Assembly: GCF_000144695.1 (NCBI RefSeq)
Contig: NC_014378.1
Coordinates: 1,615,833 to 1,679,832 of the forward strand
Length of the DNA stretch: 64,000 nucleotides
Reading direction: 5' to 3'
Origin: Acetohalobium arabaticum DSM 5501
GTDB taxonomy: Bacteria; Bacillota; Halanaerobiia; Halobacteroidales; Acetohalobiaceae
How positions within the stretch are numbered: position 1 is the stretch's first letter; the number at the start of each line of letters is the position of its first letter. A program made the translations under genes and the position numbers. The notes under the pieces were generated by a model. The model was not told the DNA's origin and made no database searches. It saw nothing but the letters and a program-made list of their open reading frames with translations. Shown here in pieces: positions 12,198 through 52,761 of the stretch.

Positions 12198-12731
12198 ATT
12201 GATATATTGTGTCACTCTACAATGTTTCCGTATATACCCTTTATTTGTAATTTTCTATCATAATCGGTATAATCTCATTCATGATATTGCGGGAATAATC
12301 AATATGTATCCGCCGCTTGCCGTTCGTTCGACATCCTGTCTCACTCACTGTCAAAAACTGGCCCTCCATCGTCCGTGATTCCGGGCCAGTTTTAAGAGTC
12401 GCTCTGGACACATATTGACTATTGATAATAAAATATATTGCTGTGATTATCACCAATGAGAGTTATTGAAAGCATATATTGACTATTTATGGTATTACAG
12501 AACAGAAATTTCATTGGTTTGGGTTTTAACGCTTTCCCTCAGATAATTTTGCACAATTTAGTTGATATCTTGCAAAAAGCGACTTTAAAGCAGTCCCACA
12601 AGAGAGAATAGTTAACATATAAAGCGGAATCTTTAAATCATAATACTAAGATTTATTTACTGCTAAGTGACTAGGACTGATTTCTGGAGCGTTTGCAAGA
12701 TATCAACTCTAAACTGCAACAATATATCAAT
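12198..12731 (-). repeat. Mosaic intergenic repeat R2
   Basis: Full-length copy (534 bp) with outer ends ATTGATATATTG and CAATATATCAAT. From left to right it contains module B (12294-12423), module C (to about 12484), a short linker, and module A (about 12561-12706, ends GTTGATATCTTGCAA and TTGCAAGATATCAAC). The module B stem arms are CTGGCCC (12358-12364) and GGGCCAG (12383-12389). It lies between the argF promoter and the small coiled-coil gene. ORFs crossing it do not look like proteins. Confidence 0.88.
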
Positions 12732-31039: not shown

Positions 31040-31637
31040 ATTGAGATAATGTTGCAGTTTAGAGTTGATATCTTGCAAACGCTCCGAAAATCAGTCCTAG
31101 TCATTCAGTAATAAATTGCCCTTATAGCTAATTTTAAAATTTTAGCTTATATGATAATCATTCTCTCTTTTGGGACTGCTTTAAAGTCGCTTGTTGCAAG
31201 ATATCAACTAATTGTGCAAAATAATCTGAGGGGCGTGTTAAAACCAGATTAATGAAATTTCTGTGCTGTAATTGCAGCAATACATTTTGTTATCAATAGT
31301 CAATATGTGTCCAGAGCGACTCTCACTGGCGCTAACCGCAACGTCCTGTTGCAGCGCCAGTACTAGGACGTCCTGTCCGTCGTTAAAACTAACCCGGAAC
31401 CATGGAGGCTGTAGAGAAACAGATTTTAGCTCCTTGTTTTTAAATCAGAGCATTAATATTATCTCTTTGCTCAATAAGTTCATCCCATAGCCAGCATTGG
31501 TTTGTATGCTGGCTATGGTGGAAGGCTAGTTTTCGAGAGTGAGTGAGACAGGACGTCGAACGAACGGCAAGCGGCGGATACATATTGACTATAATCTGCA
31601 ATATCTTGAAAGTACAAAACTGCAACAATTTAAGTTG
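31040..31637 (+). repeat. Mosaic intergenic repeat R4
   Basis: About 598 bp filling the convergent gap between DUF3231 and argD. Left end ATTGAGATAATGTTGCAG (slightly diverged), then module A (about 31064-31210), then module B (31295-31592) enlarged by two insertions in its arms and loop: a hairpin TGGCGCT / AGCGCCA near 31323-31363, and a loop insert of about 110 bp with CCATAGCCAGCAT / ATGCTGGCTATGG (near 31490-31520). The same loop insert occurs in R7. The module B stem is AAAACTAACC / GGCTAGTTTT with one mismatch. Right end is degenerate, four bases from the argD stop. Confidence 0.82.
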
Positions 31638-35009: not shown

Positions 35010-36050
35010 CTATGGAATTATTCCTGCAAAATCCAAACCTTCTTTTTCATCTAAATCAGACATTAGATTCAGATTTTGGATAGCCTGGCCGCTGGCTCCC
35101 TTGATTAAATTATCTATCACAGAAATAATTATTAGTCTTCCCGTCCGCTTATCTAGCTTAATTCCTAAGTCACAGTAATTAGAACCTGTTACCTCTTTAA
35201 CCTCCGGCATCTTTTCCTCCTGTCTAATGCGGGCAAAAGGTTCTTGACTGTAGAATTTCTGGTATAATTCTATTAACTCTTTGCTGTTTACCTTCTGGGT
35301 TAAATCAGCATAAATCGTACTCAGAATCCCCCGTTTCATAGGCACTAAATGAGGTGTGAAAGAAAGTATAACCTCTTTAGCTGATAAACCGGCTAAATTC
35401 TGCTCTATTTCTGATGTATGGCGGTGCTCACCAACTTTATAGGCCTTAAAGCTTTCGGCTACTTCCGAAAAATGGGTTACCCGACTGGGCTTTCTACCGG
35501 CTCCTGTCACTCCGGATTTAGCATCAATAATGATGCTCTGACTATCAACAAGCCCTTCTTCTACTACCGGCGCCAAAGCTAATGTAGCCGAAGTAGGATA
35601 ACAGCCGGGATTGGCTACCAAACCGGCTTCTTTAATTTCTTCTTTATTCAGCTCCGGCAGCCCATAGACTGCTTTATCAATCAACTCAGAGCTTTCATGC
35701 TTCTGCTGATACCAGTCTTCATAGATCTTCTGGCTACTGTAACGATAATCTCCGCTTAAATCTATCACTTTTACGCCAGCCTTAATTAACTCCGGTACTA
35801 CCGACATAGAAACACCGTGCGGTAAAGCCGTAAAGACTATATCTACTCTTTTAGCCTGCTGTTTTATATCAATCTCTTCACACTTTAGGTCAACAATTCC
35901 CGCTAAAGCAGGATAAACTTCAGATATCTTCTGTCCCGTAAAGCTTCTCGAGGTCAGAAATTCTATCTCTACTTTAGAATGATTGGTCAATAAGCGGACT
36001 AATTCAGCTCCGGCATAGCCGGTTGCTCCTATAATTCCTGCTTTAATCAT
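35010..36050 (-). CDS. argC: N-acetyl-gamma-glutamyl-phosphate reductase
   Basis: About 346 residues. It reduces acetylglutamyl phosphate with NADPH. The dinucleotide fold GIIGATGYAGAELVRLL is at the N terminus, the catalytic cysteine in VANPGCYPTSATLAL near residue 150, and GEHRHTSEIEQ further on. The start at 36050 is chosen because AGAGGTG precedes it and MIKAGIIGATG is the family start; a longer frame to 36077 exists. It is the first gene of argCJBD. The nearest promoter/operator is more than 500 bases upstream because repeat R5 lies between. Confidence 0.95.
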   Translation of the reverse strand: MIKAGIIGATGYAGAELVRLLTNHSKVEIEFLTSRSFTGQKISEVYPALAGIVDLKCEEIDIKQQAKRVDIVFTALPHGVSMSVVPELIKAGVKVIDLSGDYRYSSQKIYEDWYQQKHESSELIDKAVYGLPELNKEEIKEAGLVANPGCYPTSATLALAPVVEEGLVDSQSIIIDAKSGVTGAGRKPSRVTHFSEVAESFKAYKVGEHRHTSEIEQNLAGLSAKEVILSFTPHLVPMKRGILSTIYADLTQKVNSKELIELYQKFYSQEPFARIRQEEKMPEVKEVTGSNYCDLGIKLDKRTGRLIIISVIDNLIKGASGQAIQNLNLMSDLDEKEGLDFAGIIP

Positions 36051-36097
36051 TGGTATCACCTCTTTTTTGATAATCAACTTTTAAAAGTTGCAACTTT

Positions 36098-36563
36098 ATT
36101 GATATATTGTGTCACTTTCCATTTGCAGCTAATATAGTTTCTTTCATGATATTACGGGAATAGTCAATATGTATCCGCCGCTTGTCGTTCGCTCAACGTC
36201 CTGTTTCGCTCACTGTCAAAAACTGCCCCTCCGTCGTCCATGACTCCGGGTCAGTTTTAAGAATCACTCTGGACACATATTGACTATCTGTAATAAAGTG
36301 TTATCATCAATGAAAGTTACATTTAGAAGTTACTCTAGATACATGATAATATATTAGATTACAAATAGTCAACATTTCTCTAGAGCGACTCTTAAGATTA
36401 GTCCGGAACCACGGACGGTGGAGGACTAATCTTTGAGAATGAGTGAGACAGGACGTCGAACGAATGGCAAGCGTAAGAGATTTGTTGACTATAATCTGCA
36501 ATATCTTAAACGAACGGCAAGTGTTTGCAAGATATCAACTCTAAACTGCAACAATATATCAAT
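36098..36563 (-). repeat. Mosaic intergenic repeat R5, in the argC leader
   Basis: 466 bp with outer ends ATTGATATATTG / CAATATATCAAT. It has two module B copies in opposite orientation: B1 at 36159-36287 and a diverged B2 at 36364-36492. The B1 stem is CTGCCCC / GGGTCAG with one mismatch; the B2 stem is AAGATTAGTCC (36394-36404) / GGACTAATCTT (36423-36433), perfect. Only the right end of module A remains (TTGCAAGATATCAAC near 36524-36540). It lies between the arg promoter (36579-36607) and argC. Confidence 0.87.
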
Positions 36564-36578
36564 ATAACATTGATTATA

Positions 36579-36607
36579 ATTATACACAACAACGTATAAA
36601 AATGCAA
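36579..36607 (-). promoter_or_regulatory. argC promoter with ArgR-box-like operator, upstream of R5
   Basis: Minus strand TTGCAT (36602-36607), 17-bp spacer, TATAAT (36579-36584), followed by TATAA as at argF and carA. TTGCATTTTTATACG lines up with the ARG-box sequences of the other two, including the overlap with the -35. It is about 530 bases from the argC start. Confidence 0.6.
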
Positions 36608-36619
36608 ATGTTTGATAGA

Positions 36620-36655
36620 AATTAAAAAGAGCCTCCCGCTAAACGGAAGGCTCTT
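36620..36655 (-). terminator. Terminator after cspA
   Basis: 12-bp arms AAGAGCCTCCCG / CGGAAGGCTCTT with one G-U pair and a five-base loop, followed on the minus strand by TTTTTAATT. Confidence 0.88.
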
Positions 36656-39726: not shown

Positions 39727-40362
39727 ATTGATATATTGTTGCAGTTTCAAGATATTGCAGTGATAGTCAATATGTATCCGCCACTTGCCGTTCGTTCGAC
39801 GTCCTGTCTTACTCACTGTCAAAAACTGACCCTCCGCCGTCCATGGCTCCGGGTCAGTTTTAAGAGTCGCTTTGGACACATATTGACTATTGATAATAAA
39901 ATATATTGCTGTGATTATCACCAATGAGAGTTGCTATAAACATATATTGACTATTTGCGGTATTACATTGTAATCACAACCTGGTTGTTTCGGAGTGAAA
40001 TCTAGCTTTTTTCATCACAACTTCTGATTGCTTTCAAAATAACTCAGCCACATCATGAGAGTCTAACTTATTTGCAATTAGCAACAGAAGAGAAAAAAGA
40101 TCTAGAGCGGAGAAACTTCCCAGACTGTAATTACAGAACGGAAATTTCGTTAATATGGTTTCACGCCACTTCCGATAATTTTGCACAATTAGTTGATATC
40201 TTGCAACAAGCGACTTTAAAGCAGCCCCAAAAGAGAAAATGGCTAACATATAAAGTAGGGTATTCAAACAGTAGCTCTAAGGTTAATTTATTGCTAATTA
40301 ATCAGGGCTGATTTTCGGAGCGTTTGCAAGATATCAACTCTAAACTGCAACAATATATCAAT
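39727..40362 (-). repeat. Mosaic intergenic repeat R6
   Basis: 636 bp with clear outer ends ATTGATATATTGTTGCAG / CTGCAACAATATATCAAT. Module order: B (39763-39891, stem AAACTGACCC at 39823-39832 and GGGTCAGTTT at 39851-39860), C (to about 39953), an enlarged module D (about 39978-40125, interrupted by roughly 80 bp), and A (about 40193-40343). It ends 13 bases before the surE stop codon. Frames across it give no credible protein. Confidence 0.88.
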
Positions 40363-52083: not shown

Positions 52084-52761
52084 ATTGATATATTGTTGCA
52101 GTTTAGAGTTGATATCTTGCAAACGCTCCGAAAATCAGCCCTAGTCACTCAGCAGTAAATCAACCTTAGTGTTACGATTTAAAGATTTCGCTTTATATAT
52201 TAACCTTTCTCTCTTGTGGGACTGCTTTAAAGTCGCTTGTTGCAAGATATCAACTAATTATGCAAAATTATCTGAGGAAGCGTTTAAGACCAGATCAATG
52301 AAAATTTTGTGCTGTAACCACAGCTTGGGAAGTTTCTCCGTTCCAGATCTTTTTTCTCCGAAATAACCCAGGCTGTAATTGCAATGTGATACCACAAATA
52401 GTCAATATATGCTTGTAGCAATTCCTATTAATGATGACCATAGCAATTTATTATATTATAATAGTCAATATGTGTCCAGAGCGACTCTTAAAAACAGTTT
52501 GGAGCCATGGAGGGTCCGCAGGATTATAAATCCTTGCTCCTAGCCTTGTCAATTAGAGCACTAATACTATCTTTTTGCTCAATGAGTTACTCCCATAGCC
52601 AGTATTGGTCTTTATGCTGGCTATGCGGAAAACTGTTTTTTGAGAATGAGTGAGACAGGACGTCGAGCGAATGGCAAGCAGCGGATACATATTGACTATT
52701 CCCGCAATATCATAAATGAGACCACATTAGTCGCAAATAAGAACTGCAACAATATATCAAT
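52084..52761 (+). repeat. Mosaic intergenic repeat R7 (most complete copy)
   Basis: 678 bp with 24-bp near-perfect terminal inverted repeats (TTTTATTGATATATTGTTGC at 52081 and its complement at the right end). Order: A (52108-52254, ends GTTGATATCTTGCAA / TTGCAAGATATCAAC), D (about 52324-52375), C (52395-52466), B (52460-52700). B's stem is AAACAGTTT (52492-52500) / AAACTGTTT (52630-52638), with a loop insert of about 115 bp shared with R4. The gap from 51997 to 52830 contains nothing else that I can support. Confidence 0.9.

Follow-up and report, generated by a model that had tools for sequence, protein, structure and literature searches.

A MITE-like palindromic repeat lies between a conserved arginine promoter/operator and argC in Acetohalobium arabaticum

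In Acetohalobium arabaticum DSM 5501, a 464-bp repeat (R5) sits between the arginine promoter/operator and argC, as had been claimed in an earlier sequence-only reading of this DNA; this observation is confirmed, real and well above chance. R5 belongs to a family of MITE-like palindromic repeats whose copies have multiplied in the A. arabaticum lineage. The explanation that accounts best for the findings, and which we regard as probable, is that ArgR-controlled transcription would run through R5, which would form a self-contained hairpin, possibly cut by RNase III, and leave the ribosome binding site (RBS) much as before. The window, i.e. the whole stretch of 64,000 nucleotides that was analysed, covers positions 1615833-1679832 of a single 2,469,596-bp contig. 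On its minus strand, csp and a terminator are followed by the promoter TTGCAT-17-TATAAT (36607-36579), R5 (36562-36099), a 48-nt stretch with the RBS and, at 36050, the ATG of argC. R5 was measured from terminal inverted repeat (TIR) to TIR, and the 466 bp given before lie within the choice of boundary; the reported distance of 48 bases to the argC ATG is correct. The family comparison comprised A. arabaticum, G001 (same genus), G002, G003 and G004. The features are, in window coordinates:

35010-36050, minus strand: argC, first gene of argCJBD (open frame; family relatives 66-79% identical)
36048-36063, minus strand: argC RBS AGAGGTG (36063-36057) and ATG (36050-36048), from the sequence and the alignment with relatives
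36099-36562, strand not applicable: R5, MITE-like palindromic repeat, from TIR pairing and genome-wide copies
36099-36118, plus strand: argC-proximal TIR (TTGATATATTGTGTCACTTT)
36158-36290, minus strand: module B, TwoAYGGAY-like, in the sense of argC transcription (149.9 bits; loops ATGGAC and AGGAC; fold)
36222-36255, minus strand: weak terminator-like hairpin of module B, then TTTTGAC (dG -12.7 and T-tract score 3.14; the csp terminator has -20.0 and 3.81)
36343-36372, minus strand: promoter-like site inside R5, TTGACT-18-TATCAT, from the consensus scan only
36362-36494, plus strand: module A, TwoAYGGAY-like, in the opposite orientation and predicted to pair with module B in the leader RNA (156.7 bits; fold)
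36543-36562, minus strand: promoter-proximal TIR (TTGATATATTGTTGCAGTTT on the minus strand)
36579-36584, minus strand: argC promoter -10 TATAAT after a 17-bp spacer, invariant in 5/5 family genomes
36591-36608, minus strand: ArgR-box-like operator (TTTGCATTTTTATACGTT) overlapping the -35, placed in the same way at carA and argF and in the relatives
36602-36607, minus strand: argC promoter -35 TTGCAT, invariant in 5/5 family genomes
36627-36655, minus strand: upstream csp terminator, which separates csp from the argC promoter (terminator and promoter scans)

The proposed resemblance of the argC promoter to those of argF and carA holds, since both of these read TTGAAT-17-TATAAT and have the same box, identically placed over the -35, which gives all three a common arrangement of box, -35, 17-nt spacer and TGTATAAT. 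A whole-genome search with the argC promoter/operator pattern (up to 3 mismatches) returned only 3 sites in 2.47 Mb, located at argC, carA and a gene for an amino-acid ABC-transporter binding protein, and zero matches were obtained with the reversed pattern, which argues against a chance occurrence. The four other family genomes contain 1-3 such sites each at the same mismatch limit, those that were read being mostly at the same kinds of gene, and the reversed pattern found nothing there either. Directly relevant for the arginine operon is that the pattern occurs before argC without any mismatch in all five family genomes, each of which also encodes ArgR above the curated cut-off. Hence, the hallmarks of an ArgR-regulated promoter, namely an ArgR box at the promoter, its retention in relatives and an encoded ArgR, are all present. 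The operator itself is imperfect (TGCATTTTTATACG versus TGAATNNNNATTCA), and its right half bears one change, ATACG for ATTCG, that is absent from three relatives; relaxed selection on the operator was considered, and its few changes were judged too weak as evidence. A simple consensus scan does not single out the argC promoter, so that its support comes from conservation and not from the scan score. Comparison of the five genomes thus shows a putative ArgR-dependent promoter/operator that is ancestral and conserved.

The leaders of relatives without the element were compared, as the sequence-only reading had suggested. G001-G004 keep the promoter/operator directly before argC with no insert. 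In G001, the csp gene and the terminator are likewise found upstream of the argC promoter, and the A. arabaticum leader with the R5 flanks joined aligns with the G001 leader. Because the same promoter/operator without R5 stands upstream of argC in 4/4 relatives, the claim that the element entered a working leader is borne out. Most simply, the insertion would date after the split from G001, a genome that is nearly free of the repeat family, in which the structured module and an exact R5-type TIR each occur once. Counted from the presumed transcription start, it would have stretched the argC leader from approximately 58 to approximately 522 nt.

The 20-bp TIR of R5 occurs at 93 sites in the genome (up to 3 mismatches), compared to 2 sites in the reversed control. 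These form at least 55 pairs that are 278-729 bp apart, which is a lower bound since pairs were counted in the fetched genome stretches only. The copies are intergenic and contain no long reading frame that belongs to the element itself. According to simple ORF-based gene calls, 44 of the 55 copies lie between co-oriented genes, and they end mostly about 70-200 nt before the next start, which places R5 with its 48 nt among the closest. The flanks reveal a symmetric AT-rich target preference with T at -10 and A at -1 on both sides. A target-site duplication of 2-15 nt was found neither at the element boundary nor at shifted boundaries; some of the described repeats also have no, or unclear, target duplications (Table 1 in PMC2229807). 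Accordingly, the family shows the TIRs, short length, non-coding nature, high copy number and mostly intergenic position of MITEs and lacks a target-site duplication.

An autonomous transposon with the same ends was not found in the stretches examined, and the stretches read around similar TIRs elsewhere in the order contained no transposase. TIR pairs 1.7-1.9 kb apart at two loci were considered as the parent and rejected: the IS3-type transposase inside has its own ends and was inserted into the repeat later. These IS3-type insertions (L055:1250-3250 and L068:1800-3700) are at different places within the element. In G006 and G008, the stretches that carry similar TIRs were likewise rejected as the parent, as they hold ordinary genes, short TIR elements or palindromes. 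In the order relatives G006, G008 and G009, the outer TIR is found in short elements, the smallest being a near-perfect 35-bp palindrome of two TIRs (L163:299-333). A term search of the A. arabaticum DSM 5501 genome paper (PMC3035264) gave no description of these repeats under the terms used.

Several other copies deserve mention. One (31041-31636, TIR to TIR) lies approximately 5 bp past the argD stop, hence argCJBD is bracketed by two family elements. Another (12199-12730) lies upstream of the argF promoter, on the opposite side of the operator compared to R5, which means that two arginine operators adjoin an element. The copies at L051, L059, L061, L077 and L042 share the flanks AATGTAGAATTAAA / element / TATTCTTTCAAAA and seem therefore to lie within copies of another repeat; sites of that repeat without the element could show exactly where the insertions begin and end.

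Inside R5, a covariance model recognizes two inverted copies of a 133-nt unit, modules A and B. The model has 96 matches in A. arabaticum and 1, 6, 16 and 8 in G001-G004, respectively. In a draw of 299 genomes from the phylum, ten have matches, namely G000-G002, six others with full-length E-values down to 3e-25, and G294 with a weak match. No match was found in plasmids and phages, and a search for the exact core pattern over genome contigs hit only uncultured Clostridia and one Bacillota MAG. In G093, a module copy separates the 23S from the 5S rRNA gene, in a region of strong transcription (L141:1501-1635). A second inner unit with the ends AGTTGATATCTTGCAA (12555-12712, 31059-31214, 40186-40343 and 52103-52260) gives weak matches to the module model (E ~1e-4) and may be a divergent module copy. 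Modules at 31464-31594 and 52592-52701 carry in the first hairpin an insert with its own hairpin (CATAGCCAGCATTGG...ATGCTGGCTATG), which is common to many copies.

The consensus fold, derived from 34 varied copies, comprises 38 pairs, 23 of them with compensatory changes. Its terminal stem varies in sequence between genomes with the pairing kept, the long first hairpin is tipped by an ANGGA loop on a stem of three pairs, and the second hairpin contains GA/GA tandem mismatches and an AGGA loop. Across 27 copies taken from ten further genomes, 97.1% of the pair cells are paired versus 35-44% with the partners slid, 33 of the 38 pairs change on both sides, and the covariation score is 0.73 versus 0.24 in shuffles, values to be read in the light of an alignment fitted to the model and of the relatedness of copies inside a genome. 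With each combination of pair, type and genome counted a single time, 15 G-U pairs stand against one A-C pair. Hence, the fold seems to be important on one strand, be it as RNA or as that DNA strand, and more than a palindrome of the duplex.

This architecture recalls TwoAYGGAY RNA, which was first listed in PMC2864571 and is characterized by two hairpins with AYGGAY-type loops, a tandem G-A stem and a variable outer stem, and which has been proposed to bind CsrA (PMC4333381). Read off the alignment of copies from other genomes, GGA is present in the first loop in 27/27 and in the second in 25/27 cases, the second loop usually being AGGA and thus one base shorter than the AYGGAY type; in most copies, GA/GA stands between covarying pairs of the second hairpin. 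However, the module matched no Rfam family at threshold, and with RF01731 the best copies reached 26.9 bits (L143) and 26.1 bits (A. arabaticum) against a gathering threshold of 43. We therefore term it TwoAYGGAY-like and do not file it as a member of the family. G160 additionally has an above-threshold RF01731 match elsewhere in the genome. Rfam microRNA matches to R5 were discarded, being far below threshold and of the kind that any long hairpin gives.

Regarding the transcription of argCJBD, it is likely, on the conservation described above, that the argC promoter is still used and that R5 RNA is part of the leader. It could be argued that R5 carries its own promoter, so that the operon is driven from within the element, partly or wholly free of ArgR, with the upstream promoter as a relic. 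Correia elements do have functional promoters (PMC10969869), and the promoter-like site inside R5 has the orientation of argC and a score of 10/12. However, such sites are frequent by chance (9 found on both strands versus 3.5 expected) and the upstream promoter has kept its conserved core, which makes this possibility rather unlikely.

Transcription from the conserved promoter, the preferred reading, would have the following consequences. R5 would have been inserted approximately 10 nt downstream of the presumed argCJBD start, and, provided that the promoter is still in use, the argC mRNA would begin with the approximately 522-nt leader. R5 would then close on itself, forming a hairpin of approximately 460 nt via its TIRs and the two inverted TwoAYGGAY-like modules, and would leave the argC RBS much as before. 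The computed fold of the leader RNA from 36572 is consistent with this picture (-200 kcal/mol, z = -14.7), keeping in mind that minimum-energy prediction is not dependable in its details for RNAs of 460 nt and takes no account of co-transcriptional folding. All 340 paired R5 bases find their partners within R5, and the predicted unpairing over AGAGGTGATACCAATG is nearly equal with R5 and with joined flanks, being slightly lower at the start codon with R5. In silico, R5 thus behaves as a closed domain. Among the effects that had been suggested for R5, a direct block of translation is disfavoured by this computed fold, and strong interference with the initiation of argC translation is not predicted. 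Most plausible is an effect on mRNA processing or stability. In the Neisseria mtrCDE leader, a Correia element lies just downstream of the promoter and RNase III cuts at its TIRs (PMC10969869). By analogy, the double-stranded RNA of modules A and B would offer a target where RNase III could cut, and perhaps the R5 leader is processed in this way; the mature leader would then be close to the ancestral one.

The modules raise the question of CsrA. On a genome-wide scale, one can imagine that the transposable family spreads TwoAYGGAY-like modules as candidate CsrA-binding RNAs (approximately 96 copies). Transcribed copies would then bring the operons around them, in this case the arginine operon under ArgR control, into the CsrA network, or would serve as a scattered sponge for CsrA; we regard this idea as speculative and improbable. 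For the argC leader itself, the R5 RNA could be regulatory, with the sense module B and its intact GGA loops binding CsrA as a post-transcriptional layer atop ArgR. Module B alone is predicted to fold canonically with both GGA loops present, its architecture is that for whose relatives CsrA binding was proposed (PMC4333381), and csrA is encoded in A. arabaticum. However, module A can pair with B in one long predicted duplex that hides both, for which reason we rate CsrA binding low here. Moreover, the insertion in the argC leader is species-specific. The gene csrA scored above the cut-off in 9/11 module carriers, two carriers having no clear gene, and in 211/299 phylum genomes; being common in the phylum and not clear in two carriers, its co-occurrence is uninformative as evidence. 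Taken together, a CsrA-dependent argC leader appears very improbable. Finally, that R5 largely blocks expression by termination or mRNA decay, leaving argCJBD poorly expressed in this strain, is hardly credible, since the predicted large hairpin and weak terminator-like site of the leader, the one candidate in R5 where no strong terminator was found, stand against intact open frames of argC, argJ, argB and argD and an unchanged promoter core.

The argC case represents a polarised natural experiment: four relatives show the ancestral leader, and in a single species a 464-nt hairpin has come between operator and gene. It opens a way to study how operons cope with, or exploit, a large mobile leader hairpin. 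Furthermore, a fold like that of TwoAYGGAY, an RNA for which a role with CsrA has been proposed, can evidently form the conserved centre of mobile repeats that are present in many copies, and it covaries strongly across the phylum. Such a repeat-borne module makes both its mode of spread and the proposed CsrA binding testable.

Compared to known ArgR/AhrC-controlled arginine promoters, the operator over the argC -35 is shared with carA, argF and the four relatives, but only in A. arabaticum does a repeat part the operator from its gene, by more than 500 nt. The closest parallel to the insertion is the Correia/NEMIS element in the mtrCDE leader of N. gonorrhoeae (PMC10969869), likewise a small non-coding TIR repeat just downstream of an operon promoter whose RNA is a long hairpin. 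However, the sequences are unrelated, R5 has roughly three times the length, contains two structured modules in inverted orientation and showed no target duplication, and RNase III cleavage has been shown for mtrCDE but is a proposal for R5. ERIC/IRU and similar repeats (PMC2229807) are also intergenic palindromes that give long RNA stem-loops when co-transcribed with genes; ERIC differs in being approximately 127 bp long, enterobacterial, with a reported target duplication and with another sequence and internal fold. With TwoAYGGAY RNA (RF01731), the module shares the two A(N)GGA(Y) loops, the tandem G-A pairs, the variable outer stem and weak covariance matches in G160 and A. arabaticum, but it resides within high-copy TIR-bounded repeats and its consensus has 133 instead of 168 positions. 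Hence, a MITE-like element in a leader has precedent, and what sets the present case apart is an element that is built from, and spreads, a phylum-wide TwoAYGGAY-like module.
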